Assembly: GCF_000176855.2 (NCBI RefSeq)
Contig: NC_015138.1
Coordinates: 2,666,001-2,730,000 of the forward strand
Source of the DNA: Paracidovorax avenae ATCC 19860
GTDB lineage: Bacteria; Pseudomonadota; Gammaproteobacteria; Burkholderiales; Burkholderiaceae_C
Length of the DNA: 64,000 bases
Reading direction: 5' to 3'
The translations under genes and the position numbers were made by a program. How positions within the stretch are numbered: the stretch's first letter is position 1; each line of letters begins with the position of its first letter. The notes beneath the pieces were generated by a model that was not told the origin of the DNA, searched no databases, and saw nothing but the letters and a program-made list of their open reading frames with translations. Below are positions 633 through 8,920 of the stretch, piece after piece.

Positions 633-651
633 CGCGGGCACGGGTTAGAAT
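621..651 (+). promoter_or_regulatory. Candidate sigma-70 promoter for the thrS leader
   Basis: TAGAAT at 646-651 is a good -10. The best -35 is TTGCGG at 621-626 with a long 19-bp spacer, so the -35 call is weak. Transcription would begin near 658, about 28 nt before the leader peptide start. Confidence 0.4.
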
Positions 652-685
652 GCCTGCATCAACCACTTGCAAGGGCGAGAAAGGC

Positions 686-736
686 ATGACGGTTATGACA
701 CCGCGAACTACGGAGACCCCCTCCAGCAGCCGCTAG
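686..736 (+). CDS. Threonine-rich leader peptide of thrS
   Basis: A 16-codon reading frame, [16 protein letters not shown], with five Thr codons (ACG, ACA, ACT, ACG, ACC) among its first 11 codons and a TAG stop. It is in a different frame from thrS and too short to appear in ordinary gene calls. Purine-rich sequence (AGGGCGAGAAAGG) precedes the ATG. A complete set of alternative RNA structures ending in an intrinsic terminator follows, and the next gene is threonyl-tRNA synthetase, so the peptide most likely senses charged tRNA-Thr by ribosome stalling. The frame and codons are seen directly; the sensing role is inferred from the classical thr and pheST leader systems. Confidence 0.8.
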
Positions 737-815
737 GCTGCATGTTCGCGCCTGCACGTCACTCACTGTTGCCTGCAACCCCGAAAAAGCGCGGACATCG
801 TTCCGCGTTTTTTTT
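702..815 (+). promoter_or_regulatory. Transcription attenuator of thrS
   Basis: Four mutually exclusive segments can be read. Segment 1 CGCGAAC (702-708) lies within the leader peptide at its Thr codons. Segment 2 GTTCGCGC (744-751) pairs with segment 1 over 7 bp. Segment 3 GCGCGGAC (789-796) pairs with segment 2 over 8 bp including one G-U. Segment 4 TCCGCG (802-807) pairs with CGCGGA (790-795) to form the terminator stem, followed by eight T (808-815); the A-tract 784-788 can extend the stem. A ribosome stalled on Thr codons would cover segment 1, free segment 2 for segment 3, and let transcription reach thrS. Confidence 0.82.
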
Positions 816-867: not shown

Positions 868-2787
<1,920 letters not shown>

Positions 2788-2874
2788 TGCATTGCCGGGT
2801 ACGCCGCAGAGGTCCCGCCGCGCTGCGGCGTATCGCCACATTTTTCGTGGCTTGTTGATTGAAGGAATACAGCC

Positions 2875-3462
2875 ATCGCTACTGAATTTCGTGACCGTCG
2901 CCAGCGCGAGGAGCGCAAGCACCGCCTGAACCGTGAAATCATGGCTCCCGAGGTTCGCCTCTCCGGGCCGGACAACGAGCCGCTCGGGGTGGTCAGCCTC
3001 ATGGAAGCCCTCCGCATGGCGGGCGAGTTGGATGTGGACCTGGTGGAGATTGCCGCTACGGCCAACCCTCCCGTGTGCCGCCTTGTGGACTATGGAAAGT
3101 TCAAGTACCAAGAGCAGAAGCGCGCGGCCGAGGCCAAGGCCAAGCAGACGGTCATCGAAATCAAGGAAGTGAAGTTCCGTCCCGGTACGGACGACGGCGA
3201 CTACAACATCAAGCTGCGCAACATCCGCCGTTTCCTCGCCGAAGGTGACAAGTGCAAGATCACGCTCCGCTTCCGCGGCCGTGAAATCACCCACCAGGAA
3301 ATCGGCCTCGCGCTGCTCAATCGGATCCGCGACGACCTCGGGGACACGATCCTGGTCGAGCAGTTCCCGAAGCTCGAAGGGCGCCAGATGATCATGATGA
3401 TCGCGCCCGGCAAGCGCAAGCCCGCCGCGAAGCCGGTGGCGGAAGGGGCCCAGGCCACCTGA
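2875..3462 (+). CDS. infC: Translation initiation factor IF-3, AUC start
   Basis: IF-3 binds the 30S subunit and checks start-codon and initiator-tRNA pairing. The frame gives the full 195-residue family length only if it begins at ATC 2875 (product (M)[18 protein letters not shown]...), with Shine-Dalgarno GAAGGA at 2861-2866, 8 nt upstream. The first ATG (2941) would remove 22 conserved N-terminal residues. Non-canonical AUU or AUC starts are a known family trait: IF-3 discriminates against them and so represses its own synthesis. The N-terminal domain, basic linker and C-terminal domain ([27 protein letters not shown]) are all present. It lies 87 bp after thrS and before rpmI. Confidence 0.97.
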
Positions 3463-3482
3463 GTGGCGGGCCAGGAGTGTCT

Positions 3483-3600
3483 CCGGATGCATGCAAGTGC
3501 ATCCGGGCATGGCATGGGTTTCGTACCCTGCCGCGGCCGTCCATGGCGGCCGCAAAAGAAGTGGCTCGGGGCCTGCAAGTTTGCGGATGGGTCTGCAAAC
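3483..3600 (+). promoter_or_regulatory. Structured leader between infC and rpmI
   Basis: The 170-nt gap holds three hairpins: CCGGATGCA / TGCATCCGG (3483-3506, 9 bp), GCGGCCG / CGGCCGC (3533-3553, 7 bp) and GTTTGC / GCAAAC (3579-3600, 6 bp). In enterobacteria ribosomal protein L20 represses rpmI-rplT by binding structured RNA here, so an autoregulatory element is plausible. No match to a specific L20-binding consensus was established. Confidence 0.4.
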
Positions 3601-3632
3601 GCCTCGCGAGCACGACAAAAAGGAGCATTGAA

Positions 3633-3836
3633 ATGCCCAAAATGAAGACCAAGAGCAGCGCGAAAAAGCGTTTCCGCGTTCGTCCCGGTGGCACCGTCAA
3701 GCGCGGTCAAGCCTTCAAGCGTCACATCCTGACCAAGAAGACCACCAAGAACAAACGCCATCTGCGTGGTGCGGTTACTGTGCACGAGACCAACATGGGC
3801 TCGATTTCACAGATGCTGCCCGGCATGGGCGTTTAA
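3633..3836 (+). CDS. rpmI: 50S ribosomal protein L35
   Basis: 67 residues, starting [17 protein letters not shown], the typical L35 N terminus, with the conserved [18 protein letters not shown] block. The strongly basic composition fits a small rRNA-binding protein of the large subunit. The ATG at 3633 has AAGGAGC 7 nt upstream; the longer in-frame extension lies in the structured leader and has no L35 similarity. rplT follows 26 bp downstream, the standard order. Confidence 0.98.
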
Positions 3837-3862
3837 TTTACTGACGAACAAGGAGTACACAC

Positions 3863-4225
3863 ATGCCTCGCGTCAAACGTGGTGTAACGGCACGCGCCCG
3901 TCACAAGAAAGTCCTGGCCCTCTCCAAGGGTTTCCGCGGCCGCCGCGGCAACGTCTTCCGCATCGCCAAGCAGGCGGTGATGAAGGCAGGCCAATACGCC
4001 TACCGTGACCGCCGTACCAAGAAGCGCGTGTTCCGCCAACTGTGGATCGCCCGTATCAATGCCGCTTCCCGCGAACTGGGCCTGACCTACAGCCAGTTCA
4101 CGAACGGCCTGAAGAAGGCTGCCATCGAGATCGACCGCAAGATGCTGGCCGACCTCGCGGTGCACGACAAGGCTGCCTTCGGCAGCATCGTGGAACAAGT
4201 CAAGGTCAAGCTGGCCGCCGCTTGA
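3863..4225 (+). CDS. rplT: 50S ribosomal protein L20
   Basis: 120 residues beginning [18 protein letters not shown], with [20 protein letters not shown] and [20 protein letters not shown], full-length L20. It assembles early on 23S rRNA and in other bacteria represses its own operon by binding the leader RNA. Shine-Dalgarno AAGGAG is 7 nt upstream of the ATG. Two hairpins follow before pheS. Confidence 0.98.
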
Positions 4226-4235
4226 TCTCACGATC

Positions 4236-4262
4236 GGCAGCTATCCTCTCCGGGTAGCTGCC
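4236..4262 (+). terminator. Hairpin after rplT
   Basis: Perfect 8-bp stem GGCAGCTA / TAGCTGCC with an 11-nt loop, 10 bp after the rplT stop. No T-run follows, so it may act with the second hairpin rather than alone. Confidence 0.4.
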
Positions 4263-4276
4263 TGCGCAACAACAGC

Positions 4277-4315
4277 AAGGGCTAGGGCTTGAAAAGGCGC
4301 TAGCCCTTGTTTATT
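4277..4315 (+). terminator. Terminator-like hairpin before pheS
   Basis: Nine-base stem AAGGGCTAG / CTAGCCCTT (4277-4285 with 4300-4308) followed by the T-rich tract GTTTATTT. It sits 25 bp before the pheS ATG, so it may end the infC-rpmI-rplT transcript partly or act as an attenuator of pheST. No Phe-rich leader peptide comparable to enterobacterial pheM was found here. Confidence 0.55.
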
Positions 4316-4339
4316 TCTCCAAGACGACAAAGAGTTGGT

Positions 4340-5392
4340 ATGAACGAGCTGGATTCCCTGGTAGATGCCGCCCGCAGGATGTTCGCGGACGCGGCCACGC
4401 CCACCGACCTGGAAAATGCCAAGGCCCAGTTCCTGGGCAAGGCCGGGCGTGTGACCGAACTCCTCAAGGGCCTGGCCCAGCTGCCTGTCGAGGAGAAGAA
4501 GTCCCGGGGAGCCGCGGTGAACGTGGCCAAGCAGGCCATCGAGCAGGCCCTGAACGAGCGCCGCCAGGCCCTGGCCGACGCCGAGCTGCAGGCGCAGCTG
4601 CAGGCCGAGGCGCTCGACGTGACGCTGCCCGGACGCCAGCGGGGGCAGGGCGGCCTGCATCCCGTCTCGCTCACCCTGGAGCGCATCGAGGGCATCTTCG
4701 GATCCATGGGTTTCGACGTGGCGGACGGCCCGGAAATCGAATCCGACTGGTTCAACTTCACGGCATTGAACACGCCGGAGGACCATCCCGCGCGGTCGAT
4801 GCACGACACCTTCTATGTGGAGGGCGGCACGGCGTCCGCCCCGCTGCTGCTGCGCACGCACACCAGCCCGATGCAGATCCGCCATGCCGTCCAGCATGTG
4901 AAGAAGCACCGCGCGCTGCTGGACGCCGGCCAGCCCATGCCCGAGATCCGCGTGATCGCCCCGGGCCGCACCTACCGGGTGGACAGCGATGCCACGCATT
5001 CGCCGATGTTCCACCAGTGCGAAGGGCTCTGGATCGGCGAGAACGTCAGCTTCAAGGACCTGAAGGTCGTGTTCACCGCCTTCTGCCGCACCTTCTTCGA
5101 AAGTGACGACCTGGTGCTGCGGTTCCGCCCGAGCTTCTTCCCGTTCACCGAACCGAGCGCCGAAATCGACATCCAGTTCCAGGATGGTCCGCTGGCAGGC
5201 CGCTGGCTGGAAGTGGCGGGCTCCGGGCAGGTGCATCCCAACGTGGTGCGCAACATGGGGCTCGATCCCGAGAAGTACATCGGTTTCGCATTCGGCATGG
5301 GCCCAGACCGCCTGACCATGCTGCGCTACGGCGTCAACGACCTGCGCCTGTTCTTCGACGGCGACATCCGCTTCCTCTCGCAGTTCCAGTAA
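4340..5392 (+). CDS. pheS: Phenylalanyl-tRNA synthetase alpha subunit
   Basis: 350 residues. The alpha subunit forms the catalytic part of the alpha2-beta2 enzyme that charges tRNA-Phe. N-terminal coiled-coil, then the class II core: [10 protein letters not shown], the motif 2 region ([20 protein letters not shown]), [13 protein letters not shown], and motif 3 [17 protein letters not shown]. The ATG at 4340 gives the usual MNELDSLV start with AAAGAG upstream; an in-frame ATG 33 bases earlier lies inside the terminator-like hairpin. pheT follows after 73 bp. Confidence 0.98.
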
Positions 5393-5465
5393 GCGCTGAA
5401 CCCCTTTTCGACTTCGCCGCGCGGGCCCGGCCCCTGCGGCGCCGGCCGCTCCTTTTGAACCGACT

Positions 5466-7904
5466 ATGCAATTTCCTGAATCCTGGCTGCGCGAATTCTG
5501 CAACCCGCCCCTGTCCACGGCAGAGCTGGCCGAAACCCTCACCATGGCGGGCCTGGAGGTGGAGGACCTGTCCCCCGTCGCGCCCCCGTTTCACGGGGTG
5601 GTGGTGGGCGAGATCAAGGAAGCGGTGCAGCATCCCAATGCCGACCGGCTGCGGGTGTGCCAGGTCGATGTCGGCCAGCCCACTCTGCTGAACATCGTCT
5701 GCGGTGCGTCCAACGCCCGCGTGGGCATCAAGGTGCCCTGCGCCACGGTAGGGGCTGAACTGCCTCCGGGCGAGGACGGCAAGCCTTTCGCCATCAAGGT
5801 GGGCAAGCTCCGCGGCGTGGAGAGCCAGGGCATGCTCTGCTCCGCGCGCGAACTCAAGCTCTCGGAAGACCATGAGGGCCTGCTCGAGCTGCCGGCGGAT
5901 GCGCCGGTGGGGCAGGACATCCGCCAGTACCTCACCCTCGACGACACGCTGTTCACGCTCAAGCTCACGCCCAACCTGGCCCACGCCCTGAGCGTGTACG
6001 GCATCGCGCGCGAAGTTTCAGCGTTGACGGGCGCACCGCTGCGCGAGCCCGTGTTCGCCGCGGCTCCGGTGGGCAGCGCCGACGTGCTGCCCGTCAAGAT
6101 CAGTGCACCGGACCTGTGCGGACGTTTCTCCGGCCGCGTGGTGCGCCACATCAACGCGAAAGCGTCCACGCCCCGCTGGATGCTGGACCGACTCGCGCGC
6201 TGCGGCCAGCGCAGCGTATCGCCGCTGGTGGACATCTCCAACTATGTGATGTTCGAGCTGGGCCGGCCTTCGCACATCTTCGACCTGGAGAAGATCCATG
6301 GCGGGCTGGACGTGCGCTGGGGCCGCGAAGGCGAGTCACTGAAGCTGCTCAATGGCGCCACGGTCGATGTCGATGGCCAGGTCGGCGTGATCTCCGACGA
6401 ACGGCAGGTGGAGTCGCTGGCTGGCATCATGGGCGGGGACGCCACCGCGGTGTCCGACGATACGCGCCACATCTACATCGAGGCGGCCTTCTGGTGGCCC
6501 AAGGCGGTGGCAGGCCGGTCGCGCCGCTTCAACTTCTCCACTGATGCGGGCCATCGCTTCGAACGCGGCGTGGACCCGCGGTTGACGGTGGAGCACATCG
6601 AGCGCATCACGCAACTGGTGCTTGAGATCTGCGGCACGCCCGAGACGGTCTGCGGCCCGATCGATGACCAGGCACCGAACCTGCCGCAAGCCCGGCCGGT
6701 GACGCTGCGGGTCGAGCGTGCGGCCAAGGTGATCGGCATGCCGCTCACGCTGGCGCAGTGCGCCGATGCCCTGCGCAAGCTCGGGTTGCATCCGCAAGAG
6801 GGTGAAGGGCGCCTCACGGTCACGCCGCCGTCCTATCGTTTCGACATCGCGATCGAGGAGGACCTGATCGAGGAAGTGGTGCGCATCGTAGGCTATGGCC
6901 AACTGCCCGAGACGCCTCCGCTCGCCCCGATCACTCCCAAGCTGCGGCGTGAAGACCGGCGCAGCGCATTCGCGGTGCGGCGGGAGCTGGCTGCCCTCGG
7001 CTACCAGGAAACCATCAATTTCAGCTTCGTGGAAGAGCAGTGGGAGCGTGACCTCGCGGGCAATGCAGAACCCATTCGCCTGCTCAATCCCATCGCCAGC
7101 CAGATGAGCGTCATGCGCTCGTCGCTGCTGGGATCGCTGCTGCAGGTACTGAAGTTCAACCTCGACCGCAAGGCACCCCGGGTGCGCGTGTTCGAACTGG
7201 GCCGCGTGTTCCTGCGCGATGCGGGCGTGGCCAGCTCCGACACCACGGTCGAAGGTTTCCACCAGCCCATGCGTGTCGCGGGCGCGGCCTACGGAGCAGG
7301 GGATGTGCTGCAGTGGAGCCGCAAGGACGATGCCGTGGACTTCTTCGACGTGAAGGGTGACGTGGAAGCGCTGCTCGCTCCACGCAAGGCCGTGTTCGAG
7401 CCCGCCGAGCATCCGGCGTTGCACCCCGGACGTTGCGCGCGCGTGCTGCTGGAAGGGCGCAGCATCGGCTTCATTGGCGAGCTGCACCCCAAGTGGCGCC
7501 AGCAATGGGATTTCGCGCAGGCTCCGGTGCTGTTCGAACTCGAGCTGGATGCGGTGCTGGCGCGAGATGTCCCGCGGTTCGCCGCGGTGGGCAAGCAGCA
7601 GGCCGTGGAACGTGACATCGCCATCGTCGTGTCCGAGCAGACGACCCATGCGGACGTGATGCGCGTAGTCGGCAGCGCGCTGCCCGCGACGCGCCTGCGC
7701 TCGGCGGTGCTCTTCGACGTGTTCCGGCCCAAGCGCGGCAAGGATGGCGAGCCCGTGGCCGGCTTTGCCCCCGGAGAGAAAAGCTTCGCGGTGCGACTGG
7801 CCCTGGGCGACGGCGTGACGGCGCTCACCGACGCGGAGATCGACGAATCGCTGCAGGCGGTGTTGCAGAAGCTGGAGCAGCAACTGGGGGCGCGACTGCG
7901 GTGA
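5466..7904 (+). CDS. pheT: Phenylalanyl-tRNA synthetase beta subunit
   Basis: 812 residues, typical length. Begins [17 protein letters not shown]. Domain order: N-terminal tRNA-binding OB domain ([15 protein letters not shown]), B3/B4 editing domain, B5 domain, core-like domain, and the C-terminal ferredoxin-fold anticodon-binding domain ([17 protein letters not shown]). Pairs with pheS. Its stop overlaps the ihfA start by 4 bp (ATGA), suggesting translational coupling, the order seen across proteobacteria. Confidence 0.98.
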
Positions 7905-8269
7905 TGACTTTGACCAACACTTCCAAGGGCTCGGACATGATGGAACTGGCCGTGGAGAGCCTGGAGACGCCTGCGCTGACCAAGGCGCAGCTCGCTGAAC
8001 TGCTGTTCGACCAGATCGGCCTGAACAAGCGCGAGTCCAAGGACATGATCGATGCGTTCTTCGACCTGATCGCGCAGCGCCTGGTGGACGGCCAGGACGT
8101 GAAGATTTCCGGGTTCGGGAATTTCCAGATACGCACCAAGGCACCGCGCCCGGGGCGTAACCCGCGTACGGGGGAAGCCATTCCGATCCAGGCGCGCCGG
8201 GTAGTCACCTTCCATGCCAGCACCAAGCTGAAGGAGCAGATCCAGGGCGGCGGGTCGTCCGCCGCCTGA
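7901..8269 (+). CDS. ihfA: Integration host factor alpha subunit
   Basis: 122 residues from the ATG overlapping the pheT stop; an internal start at 7937-7942 would give a protein nearer the usual 100 residues. IHF alpha-beta bends DNA sharply and serves recombination, phage integration and sigma-54 promoters. The HU/IHF fold is clear: [47 protein letters not shown]. The Pro of the RPGRNP arm that intercalates into DNA is present. Part of the pheST-ihfA unit. Confidence 0.96.
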
Positions 8270-8796: not shown

Positions 8797-8873
8797 CGGC
8801 GTGTAGCGCAGCCTGGTAGCGCACTTGCATGGGGTGCAAGGGGTCGCGAGTTCGAATCCCGCCACGCCGACCA
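8797..8873 (+). tRNA. tRNA-Pro (anticodon GGG)
   Basis: 77 nt folding as a cloverleaf: acceptor stem CGGCGTG / CACGCCG, anticodon stem CTTGC / GCAAG with loop ATGGGGT (anticodon GGG, reading CCC and CCU), T-loop GTTCGAATC, discriminator A and encoded CCA. No integrase or attachment-site repeat was seen beside it. Confidence 0.97.
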
Positions 8874-8883
8874 TTGATGTGAG

Positions 8884-8920
8884 AGGCCCAGCTTTGAAAG
8901 AAGCTGGGCCTTTTTTCTTT
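8884..8920 (+). terminator. Intrinsic terminator after tRNA-Pro
   Basis: Eleven-base stem AGGCCCAGCTT / AAGCTGGGCCT (8884-8894 with 8901-8911), 6-nt loop, then a T-rich run. It begins 10 bp after the tRNA. Confidence 0.92.

Follow-up and report, generated by a model that had tools for sequence, protein, structure and literature searches.

Gene neighborhood and layout of the locus

The window, meaning the whole 64,000-nucleotide stretch of Paracidovorax avenae ATCC 19860 DNA that was analyzed, starts inside a gene for isocitrate lyase, which ends at position 588. A gap of 279 nt separates this gene from thrS, and reading the sequence after 588 revealed no T-run terminator belonging to isocitrate lyase itself. 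The gap holds a short leader frame containing threonine codons, segments that can pair in alternative ways, and a hairpin followed by eight T residues (Table 1). The end of the T run is only 52 nt from the ATG of thrS at 868. Downstream of thrS, the stretch 2788–2941 belongs to infC, where the first in-frame ATG (2941) comes ~11 residues into the gene model. The infC start is likely an unusual codon, as is known for IF3 genes.

Of 133 loci, 102 have TANAAT at 20–75 nt 5' of the leader ATG; in a control stretch the count is 6 of 133. Transcription in the window would start near 657–660. A promoter scan found no full sigma-70 promoter in the window, and the same program scan put the hairpin on the minus strand only.

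Table 1. Features of the thrS leader and the adjoining gene cluster (window coordinates)
Feature	Position	Strand	Remarks
-10-like TAGAAT	646..651	+	Putative; TANAAT conservation among loci
Shine–Dalgarno-like GAGAAAGG of leader	677..684	+	Columns -15, -14, and -12 conserved at 94–96% in 135 leaders
Nearly fixed nucleotide block GGTTATGACACCGCGAACT around leader start	691..709	+	Leader alignment, motif and codon counts
Leader frame, 13 codons	695..736	+	Stop TAG 734–736; Thr codons at 698, 707, 710, 716
Segment 1, CGCGAAC	702..708	+	Overlaps Pro-Arg-Thr codons; pairs with segment 2 in fold
Segment 2, GUUCGCGC	744..751	+	Shortly 3' of leader stop
Segment 3, GCGCGGAC	789..796	+	5' arm of terminator and partner of segment 2
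Terminator stem-loop, segments 3 and 4	790..807	+	Arms 790–795/802–807
Eight-T run	808..815	+	Predicted end of terminated leader RNA
thrS, threonyl-tRNA synthetase	868..2787	+	TIGR00418, 721 bits against a cut-off of 384
infC, rpmI, rplT, pheS, pheT, ihfA	2788..8269	+	NCBIfam; cotranscription with thrS probable (inferred)
Next strict terminator after 815	8884..8911	+	Just 3' of tRNA-Pro 8797–8873

A threonine-rich leader frame

For the leader alignments, the -10 count, and the pairing, masking, and codon analyses, 137 loci were taken by the motif [AG]TGACNCCNCGNAC from 187 nonduplicate loci (L002–L191). Removing two near-identical rows leaves 135, removing five without a matched terminator leaves 132, and applying both steps leaves 130. 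Conservation at the fixed bases of the motif is imposed by this choice; the wobble bases, the GGTT sequence, and the later codons are not imposed.

The first-pass annotation had described a 16-codon frame running from ATG 686 to the TAG stop at 734–736, with Thr at codons 2, 5, 8, 9, and 11. That frame exists as described, but its start is not borne out by the 135 leaders, where the conserved start is ATG 695. ATG 686 was rejected; it lies one base 3' of the AAGG of the Shine–Dalgarno-like GAGAAAGG and outside the conserved block, while ATG 695 stands 10 nt from this element. Because conservation extends from this element via GGTT to ATG 695 across the 135 leaders, the leader is taken to have 13 codons, with Thr as codons 2, 5, 6, and 8.

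Beyond codon 5, Thr makes up 24.5% of the residues to the end of the 135 leaders when they are read in frame, compared with 1.6% and 2.4% in the other frames. All four Thr codons are in use at codons 6 and 7. A run of at least three Thr per six codons is found at 76 of 110 family loci, where Ala comes next at 32 and Thr on the reverse strand reaches 4. The predicted leader is thus a short frame rich in the codon that would do the regulating, as judged from the in-frame Thr excess and its conservation.

The same composition bears on whether the leader responds to threonine in particular. Its translation might instead control thrS through general translation or Rho coupling, a reading that could draw on the 12 of 135 leaders with two Thr only and on the Pro and Arg codons, which are as fixed as Thr 5 in the motif-selected set. 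We consider this improbable, given that Thr alone is strongly enriched after codon 5 (Ser is next at 9.8%) and that Thr is kept in the diverged leaders of other families.

Alternative pairing of the leader RNA

Three mutually exclusive stems can be drawn. The 1:2 stem joins CGCGAAC at 702–708 with GUUCGCG at 744–750 (7 bp), the 2:3 stem joins GUUCGCGC at 744–751 with GCGCGGAC at 789–796 (8 bp, with one G-U at 746/794), and the 3:4 stem joins CGCGGA at 790–795 with UCCGCG at 802–807 (6 bp plus G-U and A-U flanks). Rechecked on the sequence, these stems and the eight T residues are those of the first-pass annotation, as is the overlap of segment 1 with Thr codons; 702–708 overlaps the Pro-Arg-Thr codons. 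RNA folding, which it had named as a check, was carried out with RNAfold on 672–820 and gave -62.9 kcal/mol compared with -44.6 for shuffles (z -4.86; 0 of 200 shuffles as good).

Among 3000 dinucleotide shuffles of 589–867, an intrinsic terminator arose in 36, a terminator accompanied by a short frame enriched for any single amino acid in 9, and a terminator with a Thr-rich frame in 0. Each of the four strict terminators of the real window, both strands counted, has close by a short frame in which one amino acid or another is abundant, so only the match between Thr and thrS, together with conservation, carries weight. The intrinsic terminator stands between leader and thrS at 790–815 in the window and has a counterpart in 132 of the 137 motif-bearing loci.

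The geometry of the stems was compared over the 132 loci with a terminator. Segment 2 begins at a median of -0.5 nt from the leader stop, and the two pairings share at least 4 nt of segment 2 in 89% of the loci. Against shuffles, the mean z is -1.28 for the 1:2 pairing (115 loci below zero) and -1.50 for the 2:3 pairing (123 below zero). Part of both signals is background, as the z of an unrelated control window is likewise negative, at -0.50. The conserved, mutually exclusive arrangement is significant over the set and weak in many single loci, with p 0.05 reached in 34% (1:2) and 40% (2:3) of them and a p of 0.11 for the 1:2 pairing of the window itself. A perfect 6-bp partner for segment 3 is present in 92 of 130 loci (shuffled mean 47.5, maximum 58), and the two bases adjoining this pairing are themselves paired in 164 of 260 cases (permuted 131.8 ± 5.9, maximum 151). 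Since the sequences share ancestry, these last two statistics are support rather than a probability.

When ribosome positions are mimicked in the window fold, the 8-bp 2:3 stem forms if segment 1 is masked, segment 3 is left free if segment 2 is masked, and 1:2 forms with no mask. The contrast is less sharp over 130 loci, where the pairing of segment 3 with upstream sequence is 0.90 in the stalled state, 0.69 with the ribosome at the stop, 0.58 with no ribosome, and 0.76 in the shuffled control. Once segment 4 is present, even a stalled ribosome leaves the terminator as the minimum free energy structure, which means that the choice must be kinetic.

Distribution within the family

A search for thrS in 120 family genomes matched 119, and the upstream region was read in 110, the window's own genome included; the nine matches left out were two weak ones (G008 and G048) and seven that were partial or split. 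An MTPRT-like leader lies 5' of thrS at 93 of the 110 loci. With the wobble positions left open, the motif is found in 216 of 299 family genomes, with one match per positive genome and a single positive (1 of 299) for the reversed control. No second copy of the leader was found in the window's own genome at up to three mismatches. The leader is present at loci named Variovorax, Xenophilus, Acidovorax, Delftia, Comamonas, Hydrogenophaga, Ottowia, Rubrivivax, Leptothrix, and Roseateles, among others. Rhodoferax and Polaromonas loci are mixed, and the leader was not found in Limnohabitans, Hylemonella, and Tibeticola loci.

The comparison of thrS upstream regions that the first-pass annotation proposed thus finds the leader, the Thr run, the -10 element, the terminator, and the mutually exclusive middle segment recurring in the family. 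The refuting condition that it set, relatives devoid of the Thr codons or of the stems, was checked in this way and did not go against it. Its claim of a full attenuator logic holds up in anatomy and conservation; what did not hold is the leader start, and the MTPRT-like leader is absent from 17 of the 110 loci. The hairpin is kept in 11 of those 17.

These hairpin-only loci (L008, L014, L026, L113, L128, L132, L135, L143, L164, L165, and L189) carry GCGCGG..CCGCG or GTGCGG..CCGCA, and several have a TAAAAT-like element close 5'. One of them, L189, has a diverged frame, MQIFRTSLPTS.

Diverged leaders in other families and beyond the order

Elsewhere in the order, 87 of 97 genomes from outside the family were read. 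A loose Thr criterion picked out 30 of the 87 loci, and five of these (L198, L206, L220, L224, and L274) were dropped by eye, which is a matter of judgment. This leaves diverged Thr-rich leaders at ~25 of 87 loci, with peptides such as MQLNRTTTTS, MFKRTTTTRISR, MSFRTTTTGTLNQG, MAVRTTTTHP, and MRPPTTSFTRLPG that keep the Thr run. Stem pair 2 in these 25 loci is T-A in 14, C-G in 3, T-G in 2, and unscored in 6; of the 110 family loci, 21 were unscored, and the other 89 comprise 87 with C-G and 2 with T-A. Judged from the aligned sequences, the shift from C-G to T-A is a two-sided, compensatory change of the stem. Relatives that keep the Thr leader and stems, joined by diverged leaders with a compensatory change elsewhere in the order, lend support to the attenuator reading of the first-pass annotation.

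Counted as at least three residues in six codons over the 87 order loci, Arg (27) and Val (23) are about as common as Thr (24); a tRNA-Val gene can explain much of the Arg and Val runs. This gene, tRNA-Val(GAC), stands just 5' of thrS at 19 of the 25 leader-bearing loci scanned outside the family, so in those families the hairpin may double as the end of the tRNA transcript. The origin of the attenuator may lie in a tRNA terminator: in a side reading, the terminator may come from that of the tRNA-Val gene, with the Thr frame captured between tRNA and thrS. Scan by scan, tRNA-Val(GAC) was just 5' of thrS at 15 of 15 loci (L207, L209, L212, L217, L218, L220, L235, L236, L263, L265, L266, L271, L287, L292, and L293) in one and at 16 of 26 in the other.

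A further reading is that the hairpin and T run are simply the 3' terminator of the upstream gene (isocitrate lyase here, tRNA-Val in other families), the small frame being incidental. This would suit the tRNA-Val(GAC) neighbors, the 17 out-of-family loci that carry the hairpin without a convincing Thr leader, and the isocitrate lyase gene, after whose end at 588 no separate T-run terminator was noted. For the window it is disfavored and very unlikely. A conserved -10 element separates the upstream gene from the leader, a tRNA scan found no tRNA gene in the window's own thrS upstream locus, and the in-frame Thr excess would go unexplained. In a crude test on 70 long loci with a leader, the C-terminus of isocitrate lyase was found upstream at 36 and not at the other 34, which indicates that the leader follows thrS and not that neighbor.

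Outside the order, a survey of 75 genomes of the class yielded 29 loci that were read, and the Thr criterion picked out one of these 29 loci from other families. Short Thr frames with the peptides MSTTTDHR, MTRTFDI, METTRIPR, MDTTRAHR, MSTTIAPR, MSTTPLQR, and MTRTFAH are found at seven loci; the titles place six among Lysobacterales kin and the seventh only in Pseudomonadota, and five of the seven have a terminator. Five Lysobacterales-like loci (L062, L090, L095, L096, and L281) share a possible frame of greater length 5' of thrS, with the ending ..ARGNAGRACDMSTT.. (variants LTAGLACDMDTT); L089, L067, and L102 have shorter Thr frames. The sequences make it possible that the Lysobacterales-like frame is an analogous Thr leader of different sequence. 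No Thr-rich frame was found in three Pseudomonas loci. ThrS of the Lysobacterales-like L062, L089, L090, L095, L096, and L281 is 72–74% identical to that of the window, compared with 55–69% for other families of its own order; an old transfer of thrS possibly lies behind this similarity.

A nearly fixed nucleotide block at the leader start

The start of the leader is conserved beyond what an attenuation model needs. The block GGTTATGACACCGCGAAC, 18 nt in length, is near-invariant even at wobble positions, with codons 2–4 of the 135 leaders being ACA in 134, CCG in 135, and CGA in 127. Conserved codons at the beginning of thrS vary in these loci: Thr is ACG in 65, ACT in 10, ACC in 10, and ACA in 7, and Pro is CCC in 105, CCT in 15, CCA in 11, and CCG in 4. 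The window's thrS has 24 Thr codons, none of them ACA or ACT, and both of these are used at the leader start. A mini-hairpin formed by GGU and ACC, with the AUG in its loop, is predicted at -1.8 to -3.9 kcal/mol. Pairing of segment 1 explains part of the block, leaving out GGTT and the A of ACA.

The block might also be read as a site on the RNA to which ThrRS or tRNA-Thr binds directly, the peptide being secondary. This would fit the nearly fixed wobble bases of codons 2–4 beside varying thrS-start codons and the possible AUG-holding mini-hairpin, but it is highly improbable: many leader-bearing loci of other families have lost GGTT, segment 1 pairing accounts for a portion of the block, and the in-frame Thr excess needs translation. 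Somewhat less remote, though still doubtful, is that the leader-start block GGTTATGACACCGCGAACT acts as a second sequence-specific sensor, an RNA bound by ThrRS, tRNA-Thr, or the initiating ribosome. This draws on the rare ACA, CGA, and ACT codons and on the mini-hairpin; if it were true, attenuation would respond to stalling at codons and to direct binding alike.

A model for threonine-sensing attenuation

The leader with its Thr codon excess, the stems, which pair above shuffled controls, and the conservation of this anatomy make ribosome-mediated attenuation the best reading. We put the probability at roughly 86% that the element is a ribosome-mediated transcription attenuator that senses tRNA-Thr charging at the head of the thrS cluster. 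In this model, transcription would begin at ~657–660, and the leader would be translated from ATG 695. With ample Thr-tRNA, the ribosome would run to the stop codon and cover segment 2, allowing 3:4 to form, so that transcription would end in the T run and thrS would be off. With Thr-tRNA in short supply, the ribosome would stall at Thr codons 5–6 (707–712) and cover segment 1; segment 2 would then take segment 3 once it was made, the terminator would be blocked, and thrS and the following genes would be transcribed. In an untranslated leader, 1:2 would form and termination would be the default.

The reach of the switch probably extends past thrS. A scan of the window found no strict plus-strand terminator between 815 and 8884, and since the next one comes only at 8884–8911, the downstream genes of the thrS–infC–rpmI–rplT–pheST–ihfA cluster are probably governed by the same attenuator.

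Relation to known systems and biological meaning

The thrS gene is controlled differently in well-known systems. E. coli thrS has a translational operator bound by ThrRS. Like the leader proposed here, it serves feedback control of a proteobacterial thrS, and the downstream gene order is similar, but there translation is blocked by a protein, whereas here a leader frame and a terminator lie 5' of thrS. In the Firmicutes, thrS T-box leaders bring about antitermination when tRNA-Thr is uncharged. Antitermination with uncharged tRNA-Thr would be the shared outcome; in the T-box the RNA itself binds the tRNA. A search of Rfam leader families, T-box included, found no match, the gathering threshold giving only tRNA-Pro. 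A permissive Rfam scan of 580–900 returned four chance-like hits to other families, of which STnc320 (E 0.66) is one, and all were set aside as chance.

The closest relatives in architecture are the attenuators of amino acid operons (thrL, hisL, leuL, and trpL) and that of E. coli pheST, with its pheM leader, where leader attenuation of a synthetase operon is already known. All share with the thrS leader a short frame biased toward the regulating codon, three alternative stems, and an intrinsic terminator 5' of the structural gene. As with pheM, a synthetase operon would be under control, though with Thr as the codon and thrS as the gene. A comparative study of the attenuation of aminoacyl-tRNA operons by Lopatovskaya and colleagues, reportedly from 2010, may already list a thrS leader, and no priority is claimed for an attenuator of thrS in the Burkholderiales.

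A leader called thrL has also been described 5' of thrS in Streptomyces lividans on the basis of RNA-seq (PMC8079986). It is likewise a short Thr-containing leader (MKRVRPFLETTPGFVPAR) before thrS, but it differs in that its authors call it leaderless, its termination is unclear, a U-rich stretch is absent, and it has two Thr (PMC8079986). No sequence likeness was seen between MKRVRPFLETTPGFVPAR and the MTPRT leader. In a literature search, no listed paper was recognized as dealing with a thrS leader attenuator in the Burkholderiales or Lysobacterales, and, as far as its main text goes, PMC2965389 does not include thrS. Given the pheST and Streptomyces lividans precedents, the type of switch is already known.

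What the thrS leader offers is a concrete and widely conserved answer to how ThrRS is tuned in many Burkholderiales, unlike the E. coli operator or the Firmicutes T-box. Its placement before thrS–infC–rpmI–rplT–pheST–ihfA could link the supply of IF3, L35, L20, PheRS, and IHF-alpha to threonine charging. The related leaders number in the hundreds; in places they have been lost or pared down to the hairpin, and together they form a natural series for the rise and decay of an attenuator.
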